A stretch of 64,000 bases of DNA from Sphaerolaimus hirsutus. Lineage: Eukaryota; Nematoda; Chromadorea; Monhysterida; Sphaerolaimidae. The notes beneath the pieces were generated by a model. It saw nothing but the letters and a program-made list of their open reading frames with translations, did not search any database and was not told where the DNA came from. This document shows positions 2,157-29,949 of the stretch, piece after piece. Positions within the stretch are counted from its first letter, which is position 1; the number at the start of each line of letters is the position of its first letter. Both the position numbers and the translations under genes were made by a program. Location of the stretch: contig OZ038451.1 of NCBI GenBank assembly GCA_964036195.1, positions 28,661,927 through 28,725,926 on the forward strand. The letters run 5' to 3'.

Positions 2157-2198
2157 CATTGCTGCAACAACGGGGTGCAGCAACTCTTCTGCCCGGAG

Positions 2199-5048: not shown

Positions 5049-5051
5049 CAT

Positions 5052-11309: not shown

Positions 11310-11620
11310 CAAGTGTCAAAATAACCCCCCTCGAATAAGCTCCCTTCCCCCGAATTAACCCCTCAAATTTTGCTGGCGAAATAATAAACCCCATGGAGGT
11401 ATTTCGAGGTAATATGTAGTGATGGAAAAGCGCCAGAAAAAATAGCGCCAGGCGCAAATGGCGCCATTCAAAAATATGGCGCCGGGCGCCAAAATGCGCC
11501 ACAGAAAATTGCACCATGCGCCAACGGCGCCAGGCGTCATCTGAAATAATGGCGCCGGGCGCCAAAGGGCGCCAGAAACAATGGCGCCAGGCGCCAAAAT
11601 GGCGCCAACAACAAAATTCA
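11310..11620. repeat. Family A fragment and adjoining GGCGCC-rich repeat
   Basis: 11318-11412 holds TCGAATAAGCTC and CCCCATGGAGGTATTTCGAGG. At 11416 starts TAGTGATGGAAAAGCGCCAG, the left end of the GCGCC hAT-like family, followed by about 180 bp of ATGGCGCCAGGCGCC-type palindromes. The right terminal repeat is missing. Confidence 0.6.
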
Positions 11621-12381: not shown

Positions 12382-12385
12382 AATA
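12382..12385. other. Target-site duplication, left copy (AATA)
   Basis: AATA directly precedes the left LTR and is repeated at 29946-29949 directly after the right LTR. Four bases is typical for Ty3/Gypsy integrases. Confidence 0.8.
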
Positions 12386-14066
12386 TGTCAGATATTTTAC
12401 GTTTTTACTAATTTTACTAGTTTCCGTTTTTACCACAAAAATACGCCACTCGTCGAATTTTGCCGCGGCAGAGAATTGTAAATTCCGGTCCCTTTGCGCT
12501 TCTAATTGCGTGCGTAATTAAATAAATAATTGTTTTTATGGTACGGGGATTTTACACGCAAATCAGGAACGGCGCCAGTACCCCTTGGGGTCCTGACAGT
12601 TCCTGAGGACGGACACGGCAACTTACCAATCCCTTTTCGTAACTGCTGCCGGCGGTTTACTTCGATTAATTGTTAATAAGCCGTAATTAAAGTAAAGCCG
12701 AAATTAATAAAATTCAAATTAAAATTTAAGCAGTTAGTATGCTTCAGGGGGACCAAGTTGGTTTCACGGGAACTTTATTTAGCAATATAGTCAGAGTCAA
12801 TTTCACAATAGCTCAAGTGAGTCGTATAGCCTCTAGTGGGTGAAAAAATGTAAAATCAGCGCGTTTTATAATCACCAAAATCCACCATAAACGAAATGAA
12901 TACTAAATCAAAGACACAACAATTAACCGTAATGAGCGAATTAATAAGGCGAAATCAATGATCACTGCAAAAACTGTCAACGTAGCGTACAAGGCACAGG
13001 TAATTTAATTGAATGCGGGAAAAATTAACTAATTAAACAAACGGGTGCAAACGTAATTTAAATCAAGCGTAAAGTAACTGTGGTTATCCAAGACGTAATT
13101 AAATGCAATTTATCTCACAGGTGAGTGTCATAAACTGGGTTTTTATTCAGGGGTTACGGTGCAGTCGAGAGCAGGTGGTGTGACACGTGTTATCAACCTG
13201 CGCCCCTTTAGGTGAAAAATATTTTTATAGCACGCCCGACCAAGGCCACAGAAAGAACGCTCATTTGCGGGGGTTGTTCAAGGTTATTGCATTGCCGGGT
13301 AAGGGTTGGAAGCTTCGGGCCTGAACACACGCCACAAGACACTAGCACTTGTGAGTTCACCAATCACCCTGGGTGATGGGAATAATTAATTGGCACTGCT
13401 GTGCTCTTCACTGTAAACTGTGCTCTGCATGTGCCTTGCAGTTGCGTGCCGACAATAATTGCCGTTTGCCACTTTTCCACCCATTACCTAGTCCTAAATA
13501 AAAATGCACTTGGTCGGGGAATTTTCTGAATGTTATCTATCGGGGCGGCTAAGCATTTAACAGAGTCAACACCTTTTAGCTTAGTTAGAAACCTTAAAGC
13601 CTTTCTAACCCATTCCCAGACACTGCACCCTTTTGATTAAAATGTAAATTTGATAAAACCTAAAAATCATAACATTCGAAAGTGCATATTGGGAAATGCA
13701 ATTCAAAAAACGAAAGAAATCACTTAATTAACTTAACTAAAAAAATGCGGGTAACCTAATTAGCTCAATTAACGAAACATGAAATGAAAAATTATCATCA
13801 CACAAGAAATAATTATGCAATTAACGGAAAAGAAAATAATTAATAAATTCATGGCCGCAGTAGTGTCCATTCGGGCGTACCGTCCTGGGGCTGCGGCTTC
13901 GTTGGCGGATTTGCAGTGCACAGCGAACCGCACGTTCACTGTGATTTCCCTGTGCACCGCGGGTCGTCATTCGGTCGCACATGGTCGTTCTCGAGTCGTC
14001 GGAGTGTCTGCGCAAAGTTGTCGTTACGTTTTTAAGCATGATTAGTTAGCCATATTTCTACCTACA
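12386..14066 (-). repeat. 3' LTR (1681 bp)
   Basis: Starts TGTCAGATATTTTACG and ends CATATTTCTACCTACA on the plus strand. It is the same length as the copy at 28265-29945. Differences seen by eye include G/C at 12587, C/T in the AAGCCGAA block, A/G in CTCACAGG, C/A in GCGCCCCT and A/C near the right tip. Small frames inside (for example 13769-13957) are identical in both LTRs and are not taken as genes. Confidence 0.95.
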
Positions 14067-14644
14067 ATCCCACCAGCCATTAATTTTTTACCTCCGGGCT
14101 AAAAACGACATGTTCAGAAAAAGTGTTTGCGCCGTTTTTTGGTTATTCAAAAATCATGCCTTCTCTGCATTTTTCGGTGGACGGCTGTGGCAGTCACATG
14201 CCCTGGGGGTGCAAATATGGCTCGTCTTCATTCGAATTATGGCATCAGCTTTCTGCCGTGCCGGCTTTTTGTGCTCGAAACTTCGAAATTTTGGTTCCTG
14301 CTCAGGGCTCCATGTAAGAAAAAGTTTTTTTTCTTTTTGGAAACTAATTAATCAGACTACTAATCTGTGTTATTTCACAGCATCGTGCCACTGTTGGATG
14401 GGCAGTTTGGAATCAACATTCAAGTTACCTGCTCGACCGACATGTCGCAGTCCGTGCGTGTGAAAATTGATCGTCAACAAGATTTTCTAATTGTTTTCAT
14501 GGAATATTAACAAGTATGTTTTTAATTACTGATTTTTGTTACAAAGTTGTCTGTTTCTCCTGATGACAAAAAGTTGTGCATGAATTATTACATTGAAACT
14601 TTGATAACTGGTTTTTTGACAAAAATTGTTTCGTATCAATTTTC
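14067..14644 (-). other. Retroelement 3' non-coding region with weak polypurine tract
   Basis: It lies between the helicase stop and the 3' LTR. On the minus strand the bases touching the LTR read GGCTGGTGGGAT, a short purine-rich run that is the only PPT candidate. Frames here are short and are not supported as genes. Confidence 0.5.
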
Positions 14645-17600
14645 TCAATTACCATTTTCCATGTGGTGTTCTACCTGTTGCGCTGGAGCCTCCTCCGGTG
14701 GCAGTGGGATGGCCTCGACTGCGTCGTGGTGCTCGGGCGGCGGCGAGGGGGGCTCGGCGACGTTCTGCAGTGCCATGGCCGCCATGTCGTTGCTAATGGG
14801 GGAATATTCTTCATTAGGGCGGTAAACTGGTTCGACAACGGGCACCACTTCCTCCAACACCGGCACACCCTCCTCCCGCGCGTCTGCGGAGGAGTCCGAG
14901 CCCGCGGTGGCGGTTTCAATGTCAGACAAACATTCCGCCTGCAGTTCTTCTTCGAGGGCCGGGTATCTGTCCGGTCCGACTAGTTCTTTCAAGTCGGCCC
15001 GCGGGCGCCATTCCGGGGGCCAAAATCCCAACACGTTTCCCCAAATTTGGCCTGACTCGTAAGAGTAAATCCGGTCGGCTTTGTGCTCGACCGTTAGAAA
15101 CCGGTGGAAAAAGGTTGACCACAACATGGTCTCGGCGTTGGCCACCACGATGCGCACACATTTGGCGCGGGAGGTGGCTACGTTTCCCCGGGGCAACTCC
15201 GCTACAAATCCAACTCTACCATACGCCTTCTTGGGGTCGGCATCCAGCTGGGCGGAGTCGGTAGGCGGGCTGCCGCGCACGCAGGAAATGATGACCACTT
15301 CCGCTTCACGGGCCTGTGCTTTGTCGGCAGTGATTACGCGGGTGGCCCAGTAAGCCGCGTCGTGTTCTGTATGGGCTACTAGTCGACTGATTAGGGCGCG
15401 CGCCTGCGCCGCATAGAAACACACAATTAGCAAACTAGCGGGATCTGTAAGGTCTGCCCAGGGCAGGGTGGGATCTTCTTTCACCGTGGCCACGAGATAG
15501 TCGTACAGGTGCAGGATGATGCGCAGCTCCTTCTTGTTGATAATGGACATGCCCTCTTTTGATTCGCAGCCCTGGTGCACCAACGTTGATGACAGCATGA
15601 CGCCATCCTCGAAGTCGCCAGGTGCGGGCAACATGGTGGCGCCGTGCGCTGCTGTGTCGTTGTAGGCGCGTAGCAGTCCGTTGTACGCCGCCACTGAGTT
15701 GGCCTGAATGAGCTGGCGATGCCCGCGGAACACTGTTTCCAAGTGAACCACGGGACATAGTTGATATTGAGTGAGCCTATCAATGAGGGTGGGGTCGGGT
15801 TTCAGGACAGGCTCTACCCAGTCTTGCACGCGAATCATACGCGTCAATTGTTTACTGTCTCCAAATAGAAGCAGCATGCCGTTCACTGGGAGCTGAGCCG
15901 CCTGAACCACGCTAATTACTGCAGCGTCAGACGCCAAAGACGCTTCGTCAATAATTACCGCACACGCAGTCACACTTTTTATACGGGCGTCGTGGGCGGA
16001 GTCTAAAGTGACATGGATTTGACCGGGCTGCACCACTTCCAAGAACACCCGGTGCAGCCTGACCGTAGCCCTGACATATTTAGACAGCGCCCTACGCAGC
16101 ACCTTACCCCAAAATCCCTGGTCAGCTAAACTAGCCTCACCAGCCCGGGCGCCCGCCACGCCTGCCTCGAAGTCATCGAATGGCTGCTCGTCTCCATCTT
16201 CGGCGGTGAGAAATGGCACCTGTTCGGTCAGCTGTGCACGTATAACGGCGTCGTCCGTGCAGTTGTTGATAATTTCGTCCACCAGCTCGTAGTCCTTCTT
16301 GGCGCCGTCGTACTTCTCCAGCGCTGCCGTCCATTCGGGACTGAGGCGGACGATGTTGTGGCCGGTTCGCTGTGCTAGGGTGTGCAGGGTTGGCAATTGG
16401 GTCGCGGGGGTGGTATTGTAGGTGGGGTCAGTTTCCCACATGGGGCTCAAAACGCGCACCGGAAATGCCGCTCTTAATTTCAAAAATTCTTCAAAACCCT
16501 CCAGTTTTTTCATTTCAGAAAATGGCGTATCAGCCATAGCGGTCCATTTCGCGCGCTCCCGCAACAAAACTTCCAAAGCCCCAAAAATATCCCGCTGCCC
16601 TAATTTATTCAGATTGGTCAGGGCCCTGCGCGCGCCTTCATTGGCCGCCGAGTTGACCGTGCACGTGATGAGCGTCGAATGGTATTTGGCGTTCGGCTGC
16701 TTGTCCGATGGCAAGTCGGAGCCCGCGCGCACCCTGGGTCTCGAGTTATAATAATTATAGCCGCGTGAGCACACATACGCCAGTTGATTTTGTGTGGTCG
16801 TCTTCCCGGACCCGAAAGGCGAGTCACACATAATCAAAAGGGGTTTGCGCATGCGCACGGCTGTGATCACAGCTCCTAAATCTTCTACCTGTCCCTGCTG
16901 CGGTAGAAACTCACCTAATTTGGCCTGAATCATCTGTTCGTTTTTTCCTCTGAACAGTGATTCGTACAACTCATTAGCCTCGCGGCTAATTAGCGCCCAG
17001 TCAGTTTCGTCATCCAGCAGACGCAAATTCAATATCACTGCTAATTGGATTTGCGCCTCCAGGGTGAGTACTTTTGAGCCCTGAACTACTTTTGGCACCC
17101 AGCCGACCGGCGCTTTGTTCAAGGCGGCTTGCAGCGACCGCATGGTTCGGTCGTAATTGGGTGAGTCGTTCGAGCCGCGCACCATGTATCTTCCACTCTC
17201 CAGGGTTCGGGGCAGTGCTGATTGCGACGCCGCCATGTCCAACTTCGCACGCAGCATTGTAGTGGTTGGCTCTGATTCCACGCTGGTAATTCTGACTGAT
17301 AGATTGGGGCTGCCCGCCGCTGGTTTGTCTTCGTCCGGTCTGGCCAGCACCAAGCTCAACACCGACATGGGCGTCGCCTGGTTCAACAGCTGTGTCTGCG
17401 TATTTACCTGCTCCAGCAGACGAACGCGCTGCTCTTCTGGTCCTTCGAAAGTATCAGCTTGTAATTCTTCTGGGTCCGGGCGACGCACCATAATGTCGCA
17501 TGCAGTGCCCTGCGGCGTGTGTTCCCAGGACACATGCGCGCACACATCCGTTGCGCGTTTCGCCCGAAATCGCAAGAATGACTCGTTATAGCAGTGGGCC

Positions 17601-18607
17601 GCTGCTAAAATGCCCAATTTATACCTGAGAAACGCGTCCATGTTGTCTCGGTTCTCTGTGTCTGGCTGGATGCCCGTTGTGCTGATGTCCTCGGCCGTGG
17701 CGACCTGCAGCCCGTACGCATGGCCGTAGAATTCGTCGCCGAACACGTCCAAGTCGTTCAGGTCGTGATATTCGACGTGGGCCAGCCCCAGCTGCCCAGC
17801 ACTCAAATTTTCCACTCTGCTGTCACTCACGTATTCTCTGTGCAAAATGACCAACTTTTCCGGCCCGGCATCGCCCCGCTCCGCCGCGCCCAGCGGTTCC
17901 AGATTTTTGTAATTCGACGGCGTGAAGGCCGCTCGCAGCCGCGCCGTTTTCCAGTCGCTCGTGTAGGGCTGGTAGCCGGAAGTGTCGCCGCGCGTCAATG
18001 TACGTGCCGCTTGAGTGACGCGCCGCGTGCCCTGCGTACTCACGACCACTGGGGCGGCAACGTTTAAGGGGCACTTTGTCTGATTACCCCATATCGCGAC
18101 GCCGGTGAACTCCCAGTATCTTGGATTTTCTATTTTCTGTGCGATTGCGGTCGCCGAGAAACGCATTCCGTGGCGCACCAGGGGCAAAAACATCGAGGGG
18201 TGTTGCTTCTGAATTCTCGCGCATAGATCCACCAGCTGGGTGGTCCGTTTGTCCCTAGCCGCCTTGGCCCGCTTATTCGAATAATAAAAATACGGATAAG
18301 CTTCATCCGCATTCACCCACTGCTCGTTTTCGCTGAGTATCGCCATCGTTTGCTCAGAAATTCTCACATGGCACTGATACTCAACATGCCCGTCGGCGCC
18401 CGAGTCAATATACACCCTATCTACCCAACCTTCGAATTTCCCTCTGCTGGGGTAGATTTCCGGTCCATTTTGCATCTGCTGCGCGCGGTAAAGTTGTCGC
18501 GGGGGGATGGTTCCGCCGCCGCAGGCACCATGTGTATTTGTCTCCTTGGACTTAATGGGCGGGGCATCTGCACCTTCAAATGGGCGTTTGCGAGAGGCCG
18601 AAGCCAT
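14645..18607 (-). CDS. UPF1-like superfamily 1 helicase (third gene of the retroelement)
   Basis: The frame has 1320 codons from a true ATG (18607) to a stop at 14645. The C-terminal half carries the SF1 series in order: Walker A GSGKTTT (about residue 595), Walker B IIDEAS (about 887), motif III GDSKQL (about 915), ETVFRGH (motif IV region), TADKAQAREAEVVIISC (motif V, about 1100) and VATSRAK (motif VI, about 1140). This arrangement is that of UPF1/NAM7/DNA2-type helicases, which unwind RNA or DNA 5' to 3' using ATP. All key residues are present, so activity is plausible. The N-terminal 560 residues are not recognised; the extreme N-terminus is basic (SRKRPF), a possible nuclear signal. The gene takes the position where env normally lies, 226 bp after pol. 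It would probably be expressed from a spliced RNA. Its role in the element is inferred. Confidence 0.92.
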   Translation of the reverse strand: MASASRKRPFEGADAPPIKSKETNTHGACGGGTIPPRQLYRAQQMQNGPEIYPSRGKFEGWVDRVYIDSGADGHVEYQCHVRISEQTMAILSENEQWVNADEAYPYFYYSNKRAKAARDKRTTQLVDLCARIQKQHPSMFLPLVRHGMRFSATAIAQKIENPRYWEFTGVAIWGNQTKCPLNVAAPVVVSTQGTRRVTQAARTLTRGDTSGYQPYTSDWKTARLRAAFTPSNYKNLEPLGAAERGDAGPEKLVILHREYVSDSRVENLSAGQLGLAHVEYHDLNDLDVFGDEFYGHAYGLQVATAEDISTTGIQPDTENRDNMDAFLRYKLGILAAAHCYNESFLRFRAKRATDVCAHVSWEHTPQGTACDIMVRRPDPEELQADTFEGPEEQRVRLLEQVNTQTQLLNQATPMSVLSLVLARPDEDKPAAGSPNLSVRITSVESEPTTTMLRAKLDMAASQSALPRTLESGRYMVRGSNDSPNYDRTMRSLQAALNKAPVGWVPKVVQGSKVLTLEAQIQLAVILNLRLLDDETDWALISREANELYESLFRGKNEQMIQAKLGEFLPQQGQVEDLGAVITAVRMRKPLLIMCDSPFGSGKTTTQNQLAYVCSRGYNYYNSRPRVRAGSDLPSDKQPNAKYHSTLITCTVNSAANEGARRALTNLNKLGQRDIFGALEVLLRERAKWTAMADTPFSEMKKLEGFEEFLKLRAAFPVRVLSPMWETDPTYNTTPATQLPTLHTLAQRTGHNIVRLSPEWTAALEKYDGAKKDYELVDEIINNCTDDAVIRAQLTEQVPFLTAEDGDEQPFDDFEAGVAGARAGEASLADQGFWGKVLRRALSKYVRATVRLHRVFLEVVQPGQIHVTLDSAHDARIKSVTACAVIIDEASLASDAAVISVVQAAQLPVNGMLLLFGDSKQLTRMIRVQDWVEPVLKPDPTLIDRLTQYQLCPVVHLETVFRGHRQLIQANSVAAYNGLLRAYNDTAAHGATMLPAPGDFEDGVMLSSTLVHQGCESKEGMSIINKKELRIILHLYDYLVATVKEDPTLPWADLTDPASLLIVCFYAAQARALISRLVAHTEHDAAYWATRVITADKAQAREAEVVIISCVRGSPPTDSAQLDADPKKAYGRVGFVAELPRGNVATSRAKCVRIVVANAETMLWSTFFHRFLTVEHKADRIYSYESGQIWGNVLGFWPPEWRPRADLKELVGPDRYPALEEELQAECLSDIETATAGSDSSADAREEGVPVLEEVVPVVEPVYRPNEEYSPISNDMAAMALQNVAEPPSPPPEHHDAVEAIPLPPEEAPAQQVEHHMENGN

Positions 18608-18833
18608 TGTAATTATAACAATGTGATAAACTAATTAATTACGAAGTTTTATGAACGGGGAAAGTAATAAGAACTCGTGCGGTCCAGTTGCCCGTGGGCA
18701 AAAGGGGTGCACGAGCTTCCTAAAAACACACGCACACTTTCACACACACTTCATACCTGTTATACCTGGTTCCGTGTTGTTTGACGCGGCGGCGATGGTC
18801 GTAACGGCTAATCAATCAGCTAATTAATCAATT
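18608..18833 (-). other. Pol-helicase intergenic region with candidate splice acceptor
   Basis: On the minus strand the tract GTGTGCGTGTGTTTTTAG ends at 18720, so an exon could begin at 18719, 112 bp before the helicase ATG. A spliced subgenomic mRNA from the donor at 27716/27717 would use it. The tract is T/G-rich rather than a classical pyrimidine run. Confidence 0.4.
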
Positions 18834-21593
18834 TTAGTCGTCGCCGTATAATTCACTGTAAGAAGGGGGAATTAAATATTCACTGGTTGCCTTGCAACGG
18901 TCTGCATGAACTACATAAATTTTCTTATTAATATTGTTGAATAAAGTCACTAATGGGTGGGCATAATCAATGCACTCATACGGGCCGATAAAGCGAGGCG
19001 CGAATTTCTTACTGGGGCCTGTCAACTGAGTAATGCGCGGCGTGTATACGCGTACTGCTTGCCCGCGTTGCACATTCAATCGGCGCGCACGGCGATTGGC
19101 GTAAAATTGCTCCTTTTGCTGCGCCTTTGCTAAAGCGGTGTGCGCTGCTTCGCGTGCGGTGGTCAGACGCGCGCCTAATTCATTTATAAGAGCGCGCTTA
19201 TGCGGCAATGAGGGCAATGCCTCAGTGTCGGGGGGAGGCTCGATCATACGCTCCCACATAGACGCAGCAGGCTTGCCAAATAGCAACGCATAGGGGGTGG
19301 TTTGCAAGGAAGGGTGTTTTGACGTATTGTACGCATGTACAGCGGCGCCTAAATGTATGTCCCAATCGTCATGTGTACGATTTACGTAGTGAGATACTAT
19401 TTCCATCAGAACACCATTCCTACGTTCCACCATTCCGTTGCTCTTGGGGGTGTACGCAAATGATGTATGTTGGGTCGCGTTCAAATATTGTAAAAGCTTG
19501 GCAAAAGTGCCCTCGGTAAAGCTAGGGGCGTTATCACTGAGTATAATGGCCGGCACACTAAATATAGGCAAAATGTGCAACAAAAATGCAAATGATACTG
19601 TGTCTTGTTTTATGTCGGGAACGGGCACGGCAATTCCAAAACGTGTACACTGATCAACAAATACTAACACATGTCGGTTTCTGCGTTTCGTGGTTAGTAA
19701 AGGTCCTATTGCGTCTACTGCTGTCACATCACCTGGCCTTTTGGCTACCTGGCGGCACACCATTTGAGTTCGCATTGCCGCTCTGAGACCTTTCTTGGCG
19801 TTGCACGAAGGGCAGGTGGCAACCCAGCACGCACTTTCTGGCCGCATTCCTGGGAACCACGCGAATTCCTGTAATCTTTCAAATGTTTTTATTATTCCTA
19901 AATGGCCCGCCGTGGGGTGATTGTGCGCTAATTCTAATACAAATGGGACTAATTCCGATGGGATACATACGGGGTCGTATAACTGTATACCTGGTATCTG
20001 GGACGTTCCCGCTTGGCGACGTAACAAACCGTATTGGTCAATAAAATACGGCGCAGCGCTGTAAAAATTATCTGCGCGACACACTTCTATAGTTGTGGCT
20101 ATGTATGGTTCTTCTGCTTGTAGTCGCTTCAATTTGTCAACCGAAGTCATTGGAGGTAGTGCCATGATTGTACTGCGCTTAGTTGCACTCGTTAAACCCG
20201 AAACAACTCCATTTCCGGCGCCTGAACCACCAGCCATTGTTCCAAGTCCAGGTGCTTCCGCATTCCGCTGCCGCTCTCGCAGCCCGGGTGACTCCGCCTC
20301 TTTTCGCCCACGCGTTCGGTCGCTGATTGGTCGCAGTAACTCCGCCTCCTCGTTTACGCCGCTTTGTTCGCTGATTGGCTGAAACGCTGCCCTGCTCGCC
20401 GCAGCTACCGTAACCTGCTTATCGTGCGGGATAGCGATTTCATGGCACGTAACTTGTGCGAACTGCTCAAAAGCCTCATCCAGGTCCTTTTTCTCGTCGA
20501 ATACCACTGGCGCGTCTTGTCTTCTAGATAATGCATCTGCCAATTCGTTACTTTTTCCCCTCAAGTGTTTGAACGTGATTTGGTACGGCGTAATTGCTAG
20601 AGCAAACTTGTGTAACATGGCGTGCGGGGTAGTCTCTAAATTAGGATTCTTTACCCACGAAATACTCTTGGCGTCAGTCCAAACTTCAAAGGGCCGTCCC
20701 GCCAGATAACAATGCCAGTTACGTATACTTTCGTAGATTGCACACGCTTCCAGTGAAATTGCTGGCCATTTGCTTTGGGTTGCGCCTAATTTCCGGCTGT
20801 AAAAGGCACATGCATGTAGTATTTTCTCGTCCTCTGCTCGTTGCGCCAGTACGCCTGCAACGGCAATTTTAGAAGCGTCTGTGATAATTATGAACATGCG
20901 TTTAGGGTCTGGAAATTGCAAACATGGGCTTCCTAGCAATGCTTCCTTGAGCTTATGAAAAGCCTCCAGTGCCTTGGGTTTCGATGTCAAATCTACTGGG
21001 GTGTCGCTATTATAATTTTCTCGTGGTCCCGTACGCGTGAGATTTGACAAAGGTACAGCTAATTCTGCACATCTGTGAATCATGCGTCTGAAAAAACCGA
21101 TAGCTCCCAGAAAACCCTTGACCTCTTTTACGGTAGTGGGTACCGGCCAGTCCTGAATTATGTGTCGTTTGTCGTCCGGTACGCACACGCCGTCACGTCC
21201 AATCATAAATCCTAGAAAACGTACGGCTGTGACGCGTGCGAAAAAACACTTTTTTGGACTAATTTTGAAATTATTTCTAATTAATCTTTCTAACACCTGT
21301 CCTATGTCATATAAATGGGTTTCCCAGGTTGCACTATAAATTAGTAAATCGTCGATGTATAGTAACACATTTCGATGTATCAGACCGGCCATAGCTAATT
21401 CAAAACAGCGTTGCGCTAAGCTAGGTGAGCATTTTAATCCCATGGGTAAACGTTTCAGCTGAAATTGTCCAAAAACATTTCTAAATGACGTGATGTGTCG
21501 ATCGTCTGGATGCAAAGCAATGTTATAGAAAGCTTGATTTATATCGGCACTGCTAAAAATACTTGCAGCTACATAAAGATTCAACTGTTTCAT
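18834..21593 (-). CDS. pol: Retroelement Pol: RT core, RNase H, integrase
   Basis: This is a 919-codon frame. RT palm motifs come first: SSADINQAFY, LPMGLKCSP and the catalytic YIDD at residues 79-82. RNase H follows, with TDAS at about residue 236, an LEACAI glutamate, TDAKS and NELADALSRR. Integrase has an HHCC zinc finger (HPTAGHLGI then CPSCNAKKG) and a DDE core: D in TAVDAIGP, D in LSDNAPSF and E in KSNGMVERRNG. It ends with a GPY/F module (RFIGPYECI). This is the Ty3/Gypsy order RT-RH-IN. The start at 21593 is not biological: the RT fingers lie in another frame at 21553-21945. No chromodomain is visible after GPY/F. Synthesis of cDNA and its integration follow from the family; activity of this copy depends on the frame break. 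Confidence 0.95.
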   Translation of the reverse strand: MKQLNLYVAASIFSSADINQAFYNIALHPDDRHITSFRNVFGQFQLKRLPMGLKCSPSLAQRCFELAMAGLIHRNVLLYIDDLLIYSATWETHLYDIGQVLERLIRNNFKISPKKCFFARVTAVRFLGFMIGRDGVCVPDDKRHIIQDWPVPTTVKEVKGFLGAIGFFRRMIHRCAELAVPLSNLTRTGPRENYNSDTPVDLTSKPKALEAFHKLKEALLGSPCLQFPDPKRMFIIITDASKIAVAGVLAQRAEDEKILHACAFYSRKLGATQSKWPAISLEACAIYESIRNWHCYLAGRPFEVWTDAKSISWVKNPNLETTPHAMLHKFALAITPYQITFKHLRGKSNELADALSRRQDAPVVFDEKKDLDEAFEQFAQVTCHEIAIPHDKQVTVAAASRAAFQPISEQSGVNEEAELLRPISDRTRGRKEAESPGLRERQRNAEAPGLGTMAGGSGAGNGVVSGLTSATKRSTIMALPPMTSVDKLKRLQAEEPYIATTIEVCRADNFYSAAPYFIDQYGLLRRQAGTSQIPGIQLYDPVCIPSELVPFVLELAHNHPTAGHLGIIKTFERLQEFAWFPGMRPESACWVATCPSCNAKKGLRAAMRTQMVCRQVAKRPGDVTAVDAIGPLLTTKRRNRHVLVFVDQCTRFGIAVPVPDIKQDTVSFAFLLHILPIFSVPAIILSDNAPSFTEGTFAKLLQYLNATQHTSFAYTPKSNGMVERRNGVLMEIVSHYVNRTHDDWDIHLGAAVHAYNTSKHPSLQTTPYALLFGKPAASMWERMIEPPPDTEALPSLPHKRALINELGARLTTAREAAHTALAKAQQKEQFYANRRARRLNVQRGQAVRVYTPRITQLTGPSKKFAPRFIGPYECIDYAHPLVTLFNNINKKIYVVHADRCKATSEYLIPPSYSELYGDD

Positions 21594-21945
21594 CTAAGCG
21601 GGGTAACGGGAATTGGGGAGCGTGCAAAACAGCGTTCAGGCGTCTGTAATCAATTACCATCCGCTTCGATCCATCCGGTTTGGATACCACCAACGTGGGG
21701 GCACAATACGGGCTCGTACTGGGTTCCACAATGTCGTGCTCGATGAGGCATCTCAAATGATTTTCTAAGTATTGCTGATCATCCAGGCTCAACCGGTACA
21801 TTCTGCATGCAATTGGTTTTTTGTCCACTAATTGCAACCGGTAGTCCACTAATTCGCTGTAGCCGATGTCATACTTATGTCGGGCAAAAGCTTCTTTGTA
21901 CTGCAAAATCACCTTTTTCAGTTCCTCTCTGCGTTCGTCCGTCAA
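21553..21945 (-). CDS. pol: N-terminal (fingers) part of reverse transcriptase
   Basis: About 130 codons in the same frame as the upstream gag-env-pro frame, from which a lone TAA (21949-21951) separates it. It contains the RT fingers signature: LIEHDIVEPSTSPYCAPTLV, then SKPDGSKRMVIDYRRLN and FPLPRLDETV. The frame ends in a TAG just after a run of five T residues. The palm continues one frame over at 21593 and downward. No ATG opens this frame, so it needs readthrough of the TAA or another recoding event. Joining of the two RT parts is broken in this copy unless frameshifting occurs at the T run, which is not usual inside RT; a one-base indel is more likely. Confidence 0.9.
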   Translation of the reverse strand: MTDERREELKKVILQYKEAFARHKYDIGYSELVDYRLQLVDKKPIACRMYRLSLDDQQYLENHLRCLIEHDIVEPSTSPYCAPTLVVSKPDGSKRMVIDYRRLNAVLHAPQFPLPRLDETVESLCSCKYF

Positions 21946-21948
21946 AGT

Positions 21949-24900
21949 TTATGGCACGGTGAATTCCATCACGTGTCCATCCGGACATGCAACTTGCAGT
22001 GGGGGTCCTAATTTGTCTTCGGCTACTTTGGGGGGAGGTTCAGTCGTTTGAACCTGTCGACACACATCTCTGTCATAGCACTGCTTCACCCATTCAGCGG
22101 GAGGGTCTCCAGGTTTCACCTTCAGCACGCAATCCACTGGTTCGACCACCGCAATGCGCTGTCCTACCTGTAGCACTACGGGCTGATTTCGTACATTTGC
22201 ACATCTCACCTGAAACACGGGGGCACTGGTTTCATACGCCGCTGAAGCAGCCATCACTCCACAGCGTTCGCCTACCGTATCCAATCCCATGACCGTAAAT
22301 AACTTTTCATCCATGGGGGCAGATAATTTCGCCGTCACTAGCGCTTCATGTCTAGCCAGAATTTCTATTTTTTCATTCACAATAGCGTAAATTCTGCGCT
22401 GCTGCACTTCCGGGTCTGGGTTATCAAAGGGAATGATCGCATTAGCCGTAGGGATTCGTAATTCCCTTGCAGGTAGGTCTACTACCATGTGCCGTAAGAC
22501 ATCTGCACCAATTAGAATTTCACCAGCTAATCCGTTCACTGCCTGAAACACAATCCCGAAGGTGTGGTTTCCCATGGTTACCGGTACTTCCATTTGTCCC
22601 AATACCAAAAGTTTCGAGTCTGCTGCACACCTAAGGGCTCCAATAGGTGAAACTTCGTCATGCTTAGTAGCCTTTTCCTTGTGTCGCATCAGCACGTCTC
22701 TGTTGCATAATGAACGCATGGCGCCTGTGTCCAGTAGACATCTTCGATATTCTCTCCCATCGATGGTTATGGTAATGGATGGGCTGTAATACACATGCAC
22801 GATCTCTTCACGTCGATTGGCTACTTGATGTATGTTATCCCTTTCTTCCGTCGAGAAAGTGATCATGCATACTGATTCTTCTTCCAGATCGCATTTTCTG
22901 TTGATACTGTATTGTATAGCGGGAAAACGACGCGCGCCCGTGAGTGCGGGCATGCCACTTGGCATTCCCACGCACGGGTTAATTACCGTTCTTACCTTTA
23001 CCTGTTCGCTAGGGCGGTCCTCAGCCAATTCAACAATGATATTGGACTTTTCTTCTGTCTTTGGTCGCCTTTTGATTTTTTCCTTTGCCCGGTTCACCAA
23101 AGTCACGGCCGTTTCCGGCGCTGCCGCCATGAGTGCGGCTAGTAAATATTGCATAGTGACTAGAGCGCATATCAAGTAAATCCATACTTGCAGCCAGGTG
23201 CGCCAAGTGTCAAAATCCCACCATCCCAGCGCTAATACCGATTTTGCCAAGGTTCGATGTCTCTGCATGTGTGATTCCACCTTCGGCTCCGCCCCCTGCG
23301 TAATTTGCCGCACGATTGAATATGCATGCCATACGTCATTCAGGGTGGTCGTCGGCAATAGTTCTGACAAGTTGTACATGGTCGTGGCGGCAAAAATCTG
23401 ATGGTGCACATCCTTAACCTCTTCCTGTTGCCATTTCTGCGGGAAACTGTGCGTGTTATACATAGGTAAATGTTCCAGGCCGCCTACTTCCGGTAGATAT
23501 TTGTACCACTGTCCATTTAACATTACCACACGATTGTGAGCATTGGTGCATGATCCCGGGATCGCTTGAAAGTGCAAAATGTTTGTCAACCTATTCATGT
23601 GCAACGTCACATTTTGCCCGTGTACACTAACTTGCACAGGTACTGTTTCATAGCATTCTGGAGACTTTTCCTCTTTCATGATCTCGTATGTTTTTACCGC
23701 GAAACATTTGTGAACCAAAAATCCGTCCGGCGCGGGTTTAGCAATTAATTCGTTATCATTCATGTACCAGCGGGCTGTCGTAGTGGCGTGTTCACTCATA
23801 GCCAGGCGCACAAATTCTTGGAAGTGTTGCACATTCTTGCAGGTGGCTACGGCCTGTGCACACATGGTTTGCTCTGCTGTTTCGTATACTGCCTGCATGC
23901 TGGCTGCTAATTGGCCTGCGCTCACTATTCCCAGCGTGGGTCGACCTTGCGCTCGTTTTTGTCTGACGCTTCGAATCACTGCCTTTTCAAATGGGGCCAC
24001 TACTATATCCTGATCCGATTTCCATAATTTGATGCCGCATGATTCAACCTCTTCATGTGCTCTGAAAGACAGTGATAGTGTATGATCATCGGCTAGCCAG
24101 ATATCCTGTCTAATGCGTCCATGCATTTCGCGCCATTTTTCATACGGGCATTCCGCCTTCGGGTTCGGTTTCCATGTTAATTGGCTGCCGTCTTCTAGCG
24201 TGCATGCACCCATTTCATAATTGCACTTGCTAACCTCACCCAGCGTGCTTTGCATGGTGTTGGCTCCATATCTCATTCGTACTTCCCCTCGAAACAGCCC
24301 ACAGTGTGGCGTCGTTTCACTCACCCATTTGCAGCAGTACAATCCATGTCCTGAGTAACTAACATTGGTGGGGTACTGGGTGTCCCATGCGTTGTCCAGA
24401 TCACTCACAGGGGTCATGGGCCCATTGTTGCATTTGTGATACTTAATCATGCCTTCGCACTCGGCGGCGCCCACAGATCGGGGGTTAGAATCAAACTTTT
24501 CCAGCGTGACGTCGCCCCAGAAATTCTGATACGTCCTTGCCGTTCTGATAGAGGCCACACACCTGTGCGCTGCCGCACGATATTCTACCATATTTCGCTT
24601 GTAGATTGTCAGTGTCAATTTTCGTGGCCGTTCTAATGATGCCGTAGTGTCAACAATAGCCGTGCAATTTGGTAGAGGGGGGTACGTGTATAAATCGTAG
24701 TGATCTGTCAAGTCGCTGCAGAGCAGTGGAAACGAGGGCATGGTAGTCGCGCCCGCGCCCGGTAATAAAGCCAATCCCATCATAATTAACCCAATTGCCA
24801 ACACAAAAAACAGCGACTGTGCGACTTGGGGCATGTAGGGAGGTTCTGAGTACGCGCGCGGCGCGGGGCGCACCCCTTCCTCAGTAGACAGAAAGCCCAT

Positions 24901-27900
24901 ATACCTATCTATCTGGTTGCTGGAGCCAGTACGCAGTGGCAGAGCGGCCGGCGTGGCGTACAAAAACGGGTCCAGACTGATGTTCATGAGCACGTCCAAG
25001 GGCACCTCAGTCAGCGAGTCCGAGTGGTCGTCTGCGGGACAATTAGGCCACAACGTACAGTCCGTTTCCTTCAAATCATGCATTCCGATCCTGCGCAAAA
25101 AGGCCAGCCAGGTAGTTCGAAACAGGTAACCTTTTTCAGTTCGCATGTATGCCCACGGTTTGATCCAGAATTCCCGCTCCTGCGCGAGCACATGCATTCC
25201 AGTAGTGCGCTGCTGCTCTTCGGGTGACTCTGGAACCAGTTCGTCAGGTTCCTCATCCTCTAATTCCAAGCCTTGCATCACAGGGATTAATTTATTAACG
25301 GGACGTATCATCATGCAGCGATCATCTTCGCGCACATGCATGGTCATTCCAGTCGTACTGGACACTCGCGTGGGGTTCAGCGACTCTACGTGGGGGTTAC
25401 TTACCTGTACCGGTTGCATGTTATATTGTTGCATGCGCCCATCCGGTCCCATAGCCATCCAGTTAGCTGGCGGCGTTTGATAAGCCATCATTTGCGGTTG
25501 CATGTTCATATCGCCAGCCCTCTGTACCGTCTGCGCTGGTTGTACAGGCATCGGCTGCGCTGGTTGCCACTGCGGATATGCGTATTGCATGGGCACCATA
25601 CCTGGCTGCATCGCTTGGGCTTGATTATTTCCCTGATAGCCACCACGTTGTCCTCCGCCGCGCCCACGTCCATTTCCTCTGGATGCTCCGCCGCCGCGGC
25701 TCCTTTTGAAATACTGTTCCCTTTGTTCTGGGGTTAGTTTGGGGCACTCATATCTGATATGCTCTTCAGAGCCACATTCCCAACATCCTTTGTCAAATTT
25801 TCGTGGGGGCAATTTAGGGGGGTCCCTATTCAATCCCAAAAGTTTACCTTCCAACGCGCCCAGTTGCGCTAATTTCTTCGCTATCTCTTGGTGCACAGAG
25901 TCGAATTTGGCAACACTCTCAGTCATTTTCTGTTCCATTGTCTCTAACGTCTTGTCGGCCTGGGACGGCAGTCCAGCCATGGCGGGCATGTTTAGCGCCA
26001 TCAACCTGTCCATTACCTTGTCTGTAGCGCTGGCAACCACATCCTGTTTGGATTTTTCTCCCTTATTCTGGCTCTGTTCCGCTTCCAGAAAGCTCTCTTG
26101 TGCGCGTGCGTTGTCAACCATCTCTTTCCAAGTGATAGACGCCGTGACAGGTACATTGCGCCGAATTTCATTTCTCAGCCCTCCATGAAATTTTATCATG
26201 CATGTGTCACCTCGTTTTTCATGACCCATGCCGGGATAGGCGCGTTTTATCAACTTTTCCAAACGTACCGCCCATTCCAGTACCGACTCATCTGCTCCCT
26301 GTCGCGTCTCAAAAATCTCTCTCTGTGCATGATGTTTGTCATTCGGATTTTCATAGAACTTTTCCAGTGCTTGCATCATGTCCTTGTAGTTCAGGTCGCG
26401 CAATTCTCTGTACCGTGTGTTGAAAATGGCTCTGGCACTGCCCTTCAGAAACAATTTCACCAGCGGCTTCCGCTCCTGTAATTTTATGCGCAGCGCATCA
26501 CATACCGTGTCCCAGCTCCTTCTCCAGTCCCTGAAACCCTCATTTGGCTTGCCGCGGAAATATCCACATTGTTGTGCTAAGGCTGTGATGACTGCCGCAT
26601 TACTTTGCTCTAATTGCCAATTTTGTCCCGGATCTGTGGGCCGCGCCACTTCAGATGTAGCCGACGAGCTCCTGGAGGATGCTGGCGAACGGGATCGAGC
26701 GCGCCGCTGCGTAACAGTTCTCACCTGGTTCGTTCCAGCTGCCGACGGGGGCGCCGCTGGTGCCGTTGATGACTGTAAAGGCGCTGCTTGACCATTGGTC
26801 AGCACTATTGGCTGCTGGCCACTGGCCGGTGAATTTCCTCCCAGCGTCGCATTTTGATTTTGTAGGGCTTGATTATGCTGCTGGTACGCCGTCGTCAGGT
26901 CAACTATATCATCGCCATGTAAGCTGTGGTGCGCTTCGAATTCCTGCAGATAATGTTCCACCCTAGGTACCTCGGCGACTGGGTCACTTCCCCATAAGTT
27001 CATAGCGATTTTAATTAGTGTCACCATATGCAAATCCCCTGGTTCACCATTCTGTGAGAACGCGCCAACCGGTCTCGCCTGACTCATCATGTTTGCCCAT
27101 TTCTTTGCGGCTTCACATGCCTTTTTGGGTGTCCATTGTGCACAGGATGGCGTTGTTTGCACCGGGTCCAGGTCCATTATGGTAGCTTGGTAAATTAAAT
27201 TCGCATTAGTGACCTTAGCGTATCTGTCTTCCAGCGCCGGGGCCGCCGTCTGGTTTGCGCCATTGTTTGTCATTCTGCTAGCGGGACTGCTAATAATTAT
27301 CACGGGGGGGTTACTTGGAAATTCGGTCTTAATTAACTGGCGTCTAGCCTTTGCAGTGGCGCTCTGCGATCTCGACTGGTCGCTCGATAAATTCCGACTG
27401 CTGTTGCCTGACACGTCTCTCGGCGTCGAAGTGCTCTTCGGGGGGCTTAACTGCAGCGCCGGGGAAGTGTCTCCACTCTGCGCCGCTGTCTCCAACAATT
27501 CCTCTACGGTATTTTCAATCACAGGAAATTGATCTGCAGTAGCTCCAAGCTCAGCTGCAATCAAAGGATAATCACGTTGAATCGACGGCTGCCCTAGAGG
27601 CTCGCTGTCACCAACGTATCCGTCTGAACCGACTTCAGAACCCGATCGCACTCCAGGCGATATGGATGAGCTGCCCGCGCTCCAACCCAATGTCCTCCGA
27701 AGCTTAGACCACTTACCTGTCTTACCTGCTTCCTTTCCTGCAGCTTGTCTGCTTGTCCCAGGCGCTTCTTCAGCTTCTGCGCTGGACGTTAGCTGCCGCG
27801 CCGCTGCCGGTACAGCTGGCGTCTTCCACTGACTGAAACTGTCTGGCGCAGGCCCTGCACCTTCAACCGTTGATAACCTGATTACCGGGGTGTCCTCAGC

Positions 27901-28149
27901 TGTCTGTCCAGACCAGCGTTGACTTTCACTCTCCTCTAGCGCTTCCGGCGCCTCTGTTTCAGGGTTAACCGAATCGTTCGACTCACTGTCTCCTGCTTGA
28001 CTCTCAGCTGCAGCAAGTTGTGCGTCCACTTCTTGCCCAGCCTTCTGTTGTCGCGCGCGCCTTCGTGCTTGTTTTTGCTTCTCCAACGCAGCGTGCCAAA
28101 CTTGTTCTATGGTGTCCCCTTGTAAGCTTGCTGGCCCCCTCGATCTCAA
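21949..28149 (-). CDS. gag-pro: Gag - env-like glycoprotein - protease polyprotein
   Basis: The frame is open for at least 2066 codons. Residues 1-292 are acidic, Ser/Ala-rich and lack any Met; the first AUG is residue 293. A helical Gag core follows (about 500-770), then a CX2CX4HX4C zinc knuckle at 789-802 and an RGG-rich and Gln/Pro/Met-rich linker. A hydrophobic segment (about 1111-1135) opens a cysteine-rich glycoprotein with N-glycosylation sequons, a furin-like RQKR near 1395 and a second hydrophobic segment (about 1652-1676). A basic tail leads to an aspartic protease with LLDTGA (D1807) and the ILIGADVL flap region near 1880. The final residues resemble the Ty3/Gypsy PR-RT linker (QVGQRIAVVEPVD). 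The frame is stop-free throughout, so the env segment is maintained inside gag-pro rather than being a broken insert. Upstream the frame is open to a stop near 28237. Confidence 0.93.
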   Translation of the reverse strand: MRSRGPASLQGDTIEQVWHAALEKQKQARRRARQQKAGQEVDAQLAAAESQAGDSESNDSVNPETEAPEALEESESQRWSGQTAEDTPVIRLSTVEGAGPAPDSFSQWKTPAVPAAARQLTSSAEAEEAPGTSRQAAGKEAGKTGKWSKLRRTLGWSAGSSSISPGVRSGSEVGSDGYVGDSEPLGQPSIQRDYPLIAAELGATADQFPVIENTVEELLETAAQSGDTSPALQLSPPKSTSTPRDVSGNSSRNLSSDQSRSQSATAKARRQLIKTEFPSNPPVIIISSPASRMTNNGANQTAAPALEDRYAKVTNANLIYQATIMDLDPVQTTPSCAQWTPKKACEAAKKWANMMSQARPVGAFSQNGEPGDLHMVTLIKIAMNLWGSDPVAEVPRVEHYLQEFEAHHSLHGDDIVDLTTAYQQHNQALQNQNATLGGNSPASGQQPIVLTNGQAAPLQSSTAPAAPPSAAGTNQVRTVTQRRARSRSPASSRSSSATSEVARPTDPGQNWQLEQSNAAVITALAQQCGYFRGKPNEGFRDWRRSWDTVCDALRIKLQERKPLVKLFLKGSARAIFNTRYRELRDLNYKDMMQALEKFYENPNDKHHAQREIFETRQGADESVLEWAVRLEKLIKRAYPGMGHEKRGDTCMIKFHGGLRNEIRRNVPVTASITWKEMVDNARAQESFLEAEQSQNKGEKSKQDVVASATDKVMDRLMALNMPAMAGLPSQADKTLETMEQKMTESVAKFDSVHQEIAKKLAQLGALEGKLLGLNRDPPKLPPRKFDKGCWECGSEEHIRYECPKLTPEQREQYFKRSRGGGASRGNGRGRGGGQRGGYQGNNQAQAMQPGMVPMQYAYPQWQPAQPMPVQPAQTVQRAGDMNMQPQMMAYQTPPANWMAMGPDGRMQQYNMQPVQVSNPHVESLNPTRVSSTTGMTMHVREDDRCMMIRPVNKLIPVMQGLELEDEEPDELVPESPEEQQRTTGMHVLAQEREFWIKPWAYMRTEKGYLFRTTWLAFLRRIGMHDLKETDCTLWPNCPADDHSDSLTEVPLDVLMNISLDPFLYATPAALPLRTGSSNQIDRYMGFLSTEEGVRPAPRAYSEPPYMPQVAQSLFFVLAIGLIMMGLALLPGAGATTMPSFPLLCSDLTDHYDLYTYPPLPNCTAIVDTTASLERPRKLTLTIYKRNMVEYRAAAHRCVASIRTARTYQNFWGDVTLEKFDSNPRSVGAAECEGMIKYHKCNNGPMTPVSDLDNAWDTQYPTNVSYSGHGLYCCKWVSETTPHCGLFRGEVRMRYGANTMQSTLGEVSKCNYEMGACTLEDGSQLTWKPNPKAECPYEKWREMHGRIRQDIWLADDHTLSLSFRAHEEVESCGIKLWKSDQDIVVAPFEKAVIRSVRQKRAQGRPTLGIVSAGQLAASMQAVYETAEQTMCAQAVATCKNVQHFQEFVRLAMSEHATTTARWYMNDNELIAKPAPDGFLVHKCFAVKTYEIMKEEKSPECYETVPVQVSVHGQNVTLHMNRLTNILHFQAIPGSCTNAHNRVVMLNGQWYKYLPEVGGLEHLPMYNTHSFPQKWQQEEVKDVHHQIFAATTMYNLSELLPTTTLNDVWHAYSIVRQITQGAEPKVESHMQRHRTLAKSVLALGWWDFDTWRTWLQVWIYLICALVTMQYLLAALMAAAPETAVTLVNRAKEKIKRRPKTEEKSNIIVELAEDRPSEQVKVRTVINPCVGMPSGMPALTGARRFPAIQYSINRKCDLEEESVCMITFSTEERDNIHQVANRREEIVHVYYSPSITITIDGREYRRCLLDTGAMRSLCNRDVLMRHKEKATKHDEVSPIGALRCAADSKLLVLGQMEVPVTMGNHTFGIVFQAVNGLAGEILIGADVLRHMVVDLPARELRIPTANAIIPFDNPDPEVQQRRIYAIVNEKIEILARHEALVTAKLSAPMDEKLFTVMGLDTVGERCGVMAASAAYETSAPVFQVRCANVRNQPVVLQVGQRIAVVEPVDCVLKVKPGDPPAEWVKQCYDRDVCRQVQTTEPPPKVAEDKLGPPLQVACPDGHVMEFTVP
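23049..24849 (-). other. Env-like glycoprotein module inside the gag-pro frame
   Basis: Residues about 1100-1700 of the polyprotein. It begins with a membrane segment (SLFFVLAIGLIMMGLALL), which may act as an internal signal peptide. The ectodomain has many Cys, sequons such as NCT and NVS, and an RQKR cleavage site followed by a Gly/Ala-rich segment. A second membrane segment (YLICALVTMQYLLAALM) and a Lys/Arg stop-transfer stretch end the module. It shares conserved blocks with the glycoprotein at 1-1365. Confidence 0.8.
27711..27720 (-). promoter_or_regulatory. Consensus splice donor in the gag 5' region
   Basis: On the minus strand ACAG/GTAAGT is a perfect donor; a second, GCAG/GTAAGA, lies nine bases upstream. 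Both are in the AUG-less part of gag. This could be the major donor for subgenomic env or helicase RNA (inference). Confidence 0.45.
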
Positions 28150-28244
28150 TTCCCTGTGGGGTGACTCGTTATCCGTGAAGCCGTTTTTTGTAGAGGCGTT
28201 GATCAGGCGCCCCAGACAGAAAACTTTATGGCTTGCTTAGGAAA

Positions 28245-28262
28245 CCACTCGCTACGCTACCA
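28245..28262 (-). other. Primer-binding site
   Basis: Two bases inside the 5' LTR end, the minus strand reads TGGTAGCGTAGCGAGTGG. TGG is the complement of a tRNA CCA end. The first seven bases match what I recall of the metazoan initiator tRNA-Met 3' end (GCTACCA); the rest diverges, so the primer is uncertain. Confidence 0.6.
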
Positions 28263-28264
28263 GT

Positions 28265-29945: not shown

Positions 29946-29949
29946 AATA
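29946..29949. other. Target-site duplication, right copy (AATA)
   Basis: Matches 12382-12385. Confidence 0.8.

Follow-up and report, generated by a model that had tools for sequence, protein, structure and literature searches.

A young, multi-copy, retrovirus-like LTR element of Ty3/Gypsy type in Sphaerolaimus hirsutus carries a UPF1-like SF1 helicase as a standing part of its genome. The copy analyzed here spans 17.56 kb (12386-29945, minus strand) of a 64,000-nucleotide stretch of genomic DNA, hereafter the window. The COX1 match in the host contains 14 internal TGA codons and is readable with TGA as Trp; among the best 120 of 7999 hits, the closest named contigs, insects by name, matched at about 64-67% and other contigs at 89% and 79%.

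Structure and family of the element

According to the LTR alignment and the termini, the element is bounded by two LTRs with TG..CA ends, which share 99.7% identity with 5 mismatches in 1,682 positions (alignment of 12386-14067 with 28265-29946). Given these termini and the AATA on either flank, the helicase ORF lies within the target duplication. It is located between pol and the 3' LTR on the minus strand, the same as gag and pol, just as the first-pass annotation of this DNA had described. The features of the window copy are as follows.

12382-12385, no strand: target-site duplication AATA, left, letters flanking the element
12386-14066, minus: 3' LTR, 1681 bp, TG..CA
14645-18607, minus: UPF1-like SF1 helicase, 1320 aa
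18720-18726, minus: acceptor-like TTTTTAG preceding the helicase ATG, putative splice site
18834-21593, minus: pol in the +1 frame, with the remaining RT, RNase H and integrase (H2C2 and rve)
21553-21948, minus: RT, N-terminal portion, read in the ORF1 frame up to and including TTT-TAG (21558-21553)
21949-28236, minus: ORF1 open frame, with an ATG-less 5' extension, Gag, Env-like glycoprotein and protease in a single frame
22720-22731, minus: DTGA, aspartic protease active-site motif (protease Pfam matches under cut-off)
23119-24813, minus: Env-like glycoprotein with hydrophobic signal, RQKR and C-terminal TM
23485-24258, minus: PF24664 Monjiviricetes_fusion match (Pfam) within the Env-like glycoprotein
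25738-25785, minus: CCHC zinc knuckle of the nucleocapsid; zf-CCHC (Pfam) at 16 bits, under its cut-off
26221-26460, minus: Retrotrans_gag match (Pfam) in Gag
27274-28236, minus: ORF1 frame, initial 321 codons, without ATG, variation synonymous-biased
28245-28262, minus: candidate primer-binding site that begins with TGG, 2 nt inward from the 5' LTR
28265-29945, minus: 5' LTR, 1681 bp, TG..CA
29946-29949, no strand: target-site duplication AATA, right, letters flanking the element

The element has the TG..CA LTRs with a 4-6 bp target duplication and the pol order PR-RT-RH-IN of Ty3/Gypsy (Metaviridae) elements, with DTGA in ORF1 followed by RVT_1, RT_RNaseH, Integrase_H2C2 and rve. A protein search returned 33 matches at E <= 0.001 (8000 scored), bearing RT, RNase H or integrase-type Pfam domains in varying sets. 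A 4-bp duplication was also found in four of five further copies with both ends located and was missing from the fifth; in a sixth copy checked, the 5' end was not located. The Troyka superfamily, which has CG..CG ends and a 3-bp target duplication (PMC12440569, in the part describing its ends), was ruled out by the TG..CA termini and 4-bp duplication.

Within ORF1, the CCHC knuckle (residue 789), env (1113-1677) and DTGA (1807) follow one another, so that the Env-like glycoprotein, which the first-pass annotation had omitted, is in frame between gag and protease. Codons 1-320 showed 35 synonymous and 15 nonsynonymous variants among 7 copies, window included. ORF1 of the window copy closes at the in-frame stop 21949-21951, and this copy is not fully intact. 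As the stop is missing in all six other copies examined, programmed read-through between PR and RT was dropped. The frame change within the RT domain at TTT-TAG, a further addition to the first-pass annotation, is conserved in 7/7 copies. Among 50 copies chosen by pol, 10 had one or two stops.

Sequence and relatives of the helicase

The helicase frame is open through 1320 codons, and residues 940-1158 match Pfam AAA_12 at 88.4 bits (cut-off 27), while AAA_30 and AAA_11 match under their cut-offs (AAA_11 at 17 bits). The SF1 motifs are legible as SPFGSGKT (aa 596-603), VIIDEAS (884), FGDSKQL (915), TADKAQAREAEVV (1093) and NVATSRAK (1142). An intact helicase with SF1 motifs, as originally noted, is thus borne out, and the AAA_11/AAA_12 core with SF1 motifs that characterizes UPF1-like SF1 helicases is present. 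Among solved structures, it matched 8ftm (E 1.6e-6), UPF1 (0.0036), NAM7 (0.028), SMUBP-2 (0.22) and SEN1 (1.3), and the nearest chain bears the name 5'-3' RNA helicase-like protein. The predicted UPF1-like SF1 class rests mainly on AAA_12 and 8ftm.

Compared with two host stretches that we labelled UPF1 by eye, the helicase showed 26-28% identity over 96-114 aa. Captured UPF1 was ruled out on this identity, which also argues against the helicase being simply a UPF1 copy serving as a decoy. Pfam gave no match to the UPF1 CH (UPF2-binding) domain in helicase aa 1-450, and on this and the low identity a UPF1 orthologue was ruled out. An RNA-virus-type SF1 helicase was likewise rejected, as PF01443 Viral_helicase1 scored 15.2 bits, under its cut-off of 21, versus about 90 for AAA_12.

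Other profiles matched the helicase as well, namely PADLOC MkoA (56 and 46 bits), phrog_25411 of unknown function (24 bits) and NCBIfam PLuB_AAA (19 bits); these matches show only the common SF1 core. The N-terminus had a weak match to norovirus 3C-like protease, at E of 1 and above. When aa 450-1200 were searched against 5.8 billion proteins, none of the 7991 scored candidates reached E <= 0.001; this search scores word-sharing candidates only, so the null is weak evidence of rarity. Scanning viral contigs with helicase, pol and env returned no relatives. A single-sequence structure prediction of the core (aa 440-1200) had a mean pLDDT of 32 and was discarded.

The helicase is conserved in place across many copies

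The host genome holds 148 element-type AAA_12 matches, window included, among 150 scored of 454 candidates; the element type was called by match range and score, and 40 copies (window included) were viewed as sequence. Open frames of at least 1285 aa contain 102 of the 148. Neither of the outcomes that the first-pass annotation had set against its own reading, a helicase found only here or stop codons in all sister copies, was therefore observed.

For the 30 copies with the top helicase protein scores, a choice that favors conserved proteins, the C-terminus of pol lies directly upstream of the helicase in 30/30 and an LTR directly downstream in 29/30 (window included in both). Conversely, 45 of the 50 copies chosen by pol had AAA_12 downstream on the same strand, with helicase scoring covering 150 of the 454 candidates. 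The spacing from pol to helicase was 3.03-3.05 kb in 44 of them and 4.1 kb in one. Many copies thus lie beside a Ty3/Gypsy-type pol, with an LTR next to 29 of the 30 viewed, in favor of the first-pass annotation. A second set of 10 copies came from 20 taken at every 7th row of the match list ranked by domain score, and it too is biased towards conserved proteins. Four of the 10 were open in the frame examined and six had at least one stop there; insertions or deletions relative to the window occurred in 7/10.

The helicase is under strong purifying selection between copies

Variants shared between copies numbered 203 synonymous and 20 nonsynonymous in the set of 30, giving a normalised N/S of 0.035; for the 10 copies plus the window the values were 184, 22 and 0.043 (codons with a gap or N omitted). 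The bias was significant in both sets (binomial p < 1e-79). Mean pairwise divergence at codon positions 1, 2 and 3 was 0.0091, 0.0036 and 0.0510, and that of the two non-coding gaps flanking the helicase was 0.0485 and 0.0320. GSGKT, GDSKQL, motif V and motif VI were each retained in all 30 copies, and VIIDEAS in 29, with VIIDKAS in the remaining one. These results indicate that the helicase is under strong purifying selection, the signature that the first-pass annotation had said to look for, and almost certainly a gene that functions in the element and is kept by selection. Since it appears functional and is kept across many copies, the element probably depends on it.

The helicase is most likely expressed from a spliced mRNA

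The acceptor-like TTTTTAG precedes the helicase in 27/30 copies (window included), and in none of these 27 does another ATG intervene before that of the helicase. The ATG context, with A at -3 and G at +4, is the same in 30/30. Given its own ATG, its location 3' of pol and the conserved acceptor-like site, the helicase most likely comes from a spliced mRNA, which would yield it as an accessory protein and not within Gag-Pol. As the copies are many and near-identical, its expression can be searched for in host RNA data.

Possible role of the helicase

The best overall explanation, to which we assign a probability of about 0.45, is that the protein would be an accessory RNA helicase needed for the propagation of the element. 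In this reading, it would most likely bind the very long RNA of the element itself, where it would strip off or remodel RNA and protein. The element RNA would thereby be shielded from host RNA surveillance, either small-RNA silencing or nonsense-mediated decay (NMD), whose trigger would be the several kb of RNA past the first termination codon. Such protection against surveillance is a credible but tentative function. Against it count the lack of a CH-domain match in aa 1-450 and the low identity to the host UPF1 stretches. That an enveloped LTR lineage spreads through its own UPF1-like accessory helicase, overriding host RNA decay or silencing, is possible, though doubtful; if true, the countermeasure would occur alongside the fusion of gag, env and protease in one frame and the TTT-TAG frame change inside RT. 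We know of no retrovirus or LTR element with a UPF1-like helicase as such a countermeasure. NMD is reported to be antagonised by some retroviruses (PMC4358841, in part), and a LINE-encoded SF1 helicase (TRAS ORF2) to act as an RNA silencing suppressor (PMC5563155, in part).

Alternatively, the helicase might help replication by unwinding structured RNA or RNA:DNA hybrids while a 17.6-kb genome is reverse-transcribed or packaged. The length of the element, the strong selection on the gene, the RNA helicase-like name of the nearest solved chain and the analogy with helicases of large RNA-virus genomes all speak for such a role. We nevertheless consider it rather unlikely: the helicase is an ORF separate from Gag-Pol, which leaves its entry into particles without support, and Burro elements exceed 30 kb with no nucleic-acid helicase named in the passages describing them (PMC6431247). 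The reported suppression of silencing by TRAS ORF2 (PMC5563155, in part) would fit a helicase that acts on dsRNA or small RNAs of the siRNA/piRNA pathway, as proposed for the virus-type helicases of LINEs. The TRAS helicase, however, is of RNA-virus type, whereas Viral_helicase1 stays under its cut-off here, and we regard this role as improbable.

LTR elements pick up host sequence, so a captured host transcript carried without function might be imagined. An N/S of 0.035-0.043 on shared variants, a constant place beside pol in 30/30 copies and only 26-28% identity to host UPF1 make such a passenger very improbable. No evidence was found that the window element alone had received a nested host gene or unrelated transposon, and the helicase downstream of pol in 45/50 copies chosen by pol alone (150/454 candidates scored) leaves this reading with next to no probability.

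Comparison with known systems

Helicase-bearing retroelements have precedent in LINEs and in two Copia-fusion ORFs, all with virus-type SF1 helicases (PMC5563155, in part). TRAS and Jockey LINEs are likewise retroelements with an SF1 helicase whose motifs are intact, but they are non-LTR elements with an RNA-virus-type helicase fused into ORF2 or ORF1 (PMC5563155), unlike the stand-alone UPF1-like helicase of the LTR element here. The SF1H-Copia fusions of Aedes aegypti and Leptopilina boulardi place an SF1 helicase beside an LTR-element domain; they are single ORFs joining a virus-like helicase to a Copia RNase H or integrase domain, and no whole element with LTRs is described in the passages on them (PMC5563155). 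The first-pass annotation's statement that no described element has such a gene therefore needs narrowing: SF1 helicases do occur in TRAS/Jockey LINEs and the two Copia-domain fusion ORFs, while these parts of the article describe no complete LTR element whose UPF1-like helicase is an ORF of its own (PMC5563155).

Burro, the giant Gypsy-like LTR element of planarians, shares with the present element a Gypsy-like pol, large size, extra domains and env homology placed in frame after gag and before protease (PMC6431247, in part). By description, Burro exceeds 30 kb and has apoptosis/ubiquitin-type domains, whereas the present element is 17.56 kb long and Pfam found no such domains in ORF1; no UPF1-like helicase is named in the passages on Burro, in contrast to the separate ORF 3' of pol here, and one relative has midasin-like ATPase homology (PMC6431247). 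Bdelloid rotifer LTR elements also carry an extra enzymatic ORF 3' of pol, ORF3, which encodes a DEDDy exonuclease or GDSL esterase with proposed auxiliary roles; the passages on these elements mention no helicase ORF (PMC5408684). Anakin, a mosquito BEL/Pao element with a chuvirus glycoprotein, resembles the present element, with its PF24664 match, in having a glycoprotein of negative-strand RNA virus affinity, but is not Gypsy-type, and a helicase is absent from the article's main text (PMC7642597, in part).

The literature searched, with most subscription journals, bioRxiv and Repbase outside its coverage, yielded no complete LTR element that carries a helicase. To our knowledge, it is generally assumed that retroviruses and LTR elements rely on the cell for every helicase function. 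An element family with a strongly selected UPF1-like helicase of its own allows two questions to be tested: does a helicase benefit long reverse-transcribing genomes, as it does long RNA viruses, and do retroelements counter RNA surveillance with a copy of the enzyme type that the surveillance machinery itself uses?

Element anatomy

Direct repeats at 12386-14067 and 28265-29946, with 5 mismatches over 1682 positions, delimit what is, by its anatomy rather than by RT phylogeny, a Ty3/Gypsy-type, env-bearing LTR element with the following features:

Both repeats, element on the minus strand: LTRs from the repeat alignment, 1681 bp each after trimming to TG..CA
12382-12385 and 29946-29949, both flanks: target-site duplication AATA
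28236->21949, minus strand: long first frame (Gag, glycoprotein, protease), first in transcription order
23119-24813, minus strand: Env-like fusion glycoprotein (PF24664), flanked by gag and protease in one reading frame
21553-21593, minus strand: TTT-TAG site within RT where the reading frame changes, conserved between copies; a candidate programmed +1 frameshift with the stop codon in the A site
21593->18834, minus strand: pol, second in transcription order
18607->14645, minus strand: helicase ORF of 1320 aa, third in transcription order, between the LTRs

The first-pass annotation had placed the helicase between pol and the 3' LTR, inside the target duplication and on the same strand, and the coordinates and AATA flanks agree. 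Both termini were located in five of six further copies examined for their ends. Four of these five carried 4-bp duplications (AATA, GCGC, AATG, CTAG) and one had none, so that a target duplication is present in 5/6 copies once the window is counted. Beside the GCGC of one copy elsewhere, we noted scattered tandem clusters in the window in which GGCGCC or GCGCC is abundant (11426-11607, 30285-30402, 48333-48392, 50764-50896 and 57730-57815). At 31433-35509, a tandem array of about 12 repeats (period 333, with related units of 166) starts right at a 200-N gap.

The helicase in other copies

Several helicase copies beside pol and an LTR, with purifying selection, were what the first-pass annotation named as support. 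We searched the host genome (348 Mb, 762 contigs) with the PF13087 profile and scored 150 of 454 candidates. All 150 matched; two were host UPF1-like stretches, and at least 148, including the window, were of the element type as called from match range and score. The frame around the match was open for 1285 aa or more in 102 of the 148 and shorter in 46. With the helicase protein as query, all 35 scored loci (611 candidates) matched end to end at 99-100% identity without stops. Among 30 of these copies, window included, the pol C-terminus lay directly upstream of the helicase in 30 and an LTR directly downstream in 29, as anticipated. In the pol search, all 50 scored loci (2387 candidates) showed 98-100% identity, with one or two stops in 10. 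An AAA_12 match followed on the same strand in 45 of them, at 3.03-3.05 kb in 44 and 4.1 kb in one; the remaining five fall outside the 150 scored AAA_12 loci and are not negatives. Divergence among forty copies had a median of 2.5% and a maximum of 5.8%. The helicase belongs to the element.

The mitochondrial contig of the same genome carries, by eye, cox1 followed by an ATP6-like ORF, with nad-like ORFs on the opposite strand. Host COX1 reads TGA as Trp, and its nearest relatives among the best 120 matches listed are at 89% and 79%. These matches and the TGA reading mark the host as an animal, probably an invertebrate.

Purifying selection

Variants common to at least two of the 30 helicase copies comprised 203 synonymous and 20 nonsynonymous changes (normalised N/S 0.035), and singletons 210 and 81 (0.139). 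Ten copies from down the PF13087 list plus the window gave 184 and 22 for shared variants (0.043), and 188 and 84 plus one stop for singletons (0.163); both samples lean toward conserved proteins, so these N/S figures are perhaps somewhat flattering. The selection anticipated by the first-pass annotation is thus seen in both. In pol 3' of the RT frame change, synonymous and nonsynonymous counts were 51 and 2 (shared) and 52 and 27 (singletons). Tested binomially against the proportion of synonymous changes expected, these six sets gave p from 3e-13 to 3e-92, values that are indicative, as variants are not fully independent events.

Across the helicase, mean pairwise divergence was 0.0091 at first, 0.0036 at second and 0.0510 at third codon positions, and the two gaps flanking the ORF gave 0.0485 and 0.0320. 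Third positions therefore vary as non-coding DNA does, whereas the protein sequence is conserved. Given the effect size and the free third positions, a wrong sign of selection is unlikely. Tight shared variants and relaxed singletons are consistent with a gene that the element requires to propagate and that is freed from constraint once a copy has inserted.

Identity of the helicase

In a Pfam search, the helicase matched AAA_12 with 88.4 bits (aa 940-1158), and AAA_30 and AAA_11 below their own cut-offs; aa 1-450 had no match at E <= 1. Viral_helicase1 reached 15.2 bits, below its cut-off of 21, and an IGHMBP2-type NCBIfam model 53 bits, far below the curated 349. The top solved-structure match of the core was 8ftm ("5'-3' RNA helicase-like protein", E 1.6e-6), which we take to be a Sen1 protein, with weaker matches to UPF1 (0.0036), NAM7 (0.028), SMUBP-2 (0.22) and SEN1 (1.3); viral helicases were absent from these matches at E <= 10. 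From the AAA_12, structure-match and sub-cut-off Viral_helicase1 scores, we assign the ORF as a divergent UPF1-like SF1 helicase. We rejected host UPF1 itself, as identity was 26-28% over 96-114 aa to two host stretches labelled UPF1 by eye.

The Walker A motif, SPFGSGKT, lacks the usual leading glycine. About 286 residues separate it from motif II (15955-16813, minus strand), a spacing that presumably exceeds that of UPF1 and that we read as a large unassigned insertion.

The first-pass annotation knew of no described element with such a gene. More broadly this does not hold, as LINEs with a helicase and two helicase-Copia fusion ORFs appear in the available text of PMC5563155; for a stand-alone UPF1-like helicase in a complete LTR element it stands, none being found in the literature searched, whose coverage was incomplete.

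The first frame and the frame change in RT

No stop interrupts the first frame from Gag (Retrotrans_gag 26-28 bits; CCHC at aa 789) through the glycoprotein (PF24664 27-31 bits, cut-off 27; hydrophobic stretch at 1113, RQKR at 1396, TM at 1659) to a DTGA protease. According to the available text of PMC6431247, Burro, giant Gypsy-like LTR elements of planarians, were the first case of an env set between gag and pol without a change of frame; here, env lies between gag and protease in one frame. A second PF24664-type glycoprotein ORF (1-2156, plus strand, 57.5 bits) aligns with the Env of the element over 171 positions at 26% identity. Next to it comes a 270-aa ORF in which a hydrophobic stretch was seen by eye. 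The glycoprotein ORF may be the env of another element or an endogenous viral gene. Just behind it lies a long imperfect inverted repeat (2198-5049) of six arm pairs (65-262 nt, 79-96% complementary).

The first 321 codons of the first frame (27274-28236, minus strand) contain no ATG. Because this stretch varies synonymously (35 synonymous and 15 nonsynonymous variants in codons 1-320 over seven copies), it points to initiation at a non-AUG codon or to an exon further upstream, and is reminiscent of glyco-Gag.

The first frame continues into RT to ...KYF-TAG, and RT resumes in the +1 frame in 7/7 copies (window plus six), all keeping the letters TTTTTAGCAGTGC at the change. The downstream frame is 919 aa in 47/50 pol copies and 915 in 3/50, taken from the search output as stop-bounded at both ends. 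Selection on pol 3' of this point is strong, so there must be a way past the frame change, and a +1 shift at TTT-TAG-C would be the simplest reading. To our knowledge, a frameshift site inside RT is unusual. The available text of PMC5009743 describes +1 frameshifting for Gag-Pol in Ty1 and Ty3, as well as antizyme shift sites at stop codons. An extra stop at 21949-21951, missing from the six other copies, means that the window's copy is probably not autonomous.

Expression and proposed function

In the 226-nt gap before the helicase ATG, TTTTTAG occurs in 27/30 copies and TTTTAG in 28/30; no other ATG lies between TTTTTAG and the start in 27/27, and around the start, position -3 is A and position +4 is G in 30/30. 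We infer that the helicase may be made from a spliced mRNA, for which no splice donor was identified.

A conserved, amplified and selected helicase gene thus sits in a complete LTR element. It might help reverse transcription or packaging; size alone demands no helicase, because the larger Burro has none named in the available text of PMC6431247. Suppression of small-RNA silencing is another explanation, with a LINE-encoded helicase as precedent (PMC5563155, available text).

We favor an accessory protein, probably made from its own mRNA. Ribosomes on genomic RNA that do not shift +1 would terminate at the RT site, with about 7.5 kb of RNA, or more, still downstream of the stop (21553 to the 3' LTR start, 14066), and 3'-UTR length is a trigger for NMD. 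Rous sarcoma virus and HTLV-1 are retroviruses that appear to counter NMD, according to the available text of PMC4358841. An element-made UPF1-like translocase may displace or outcompete host factors on element RNA.
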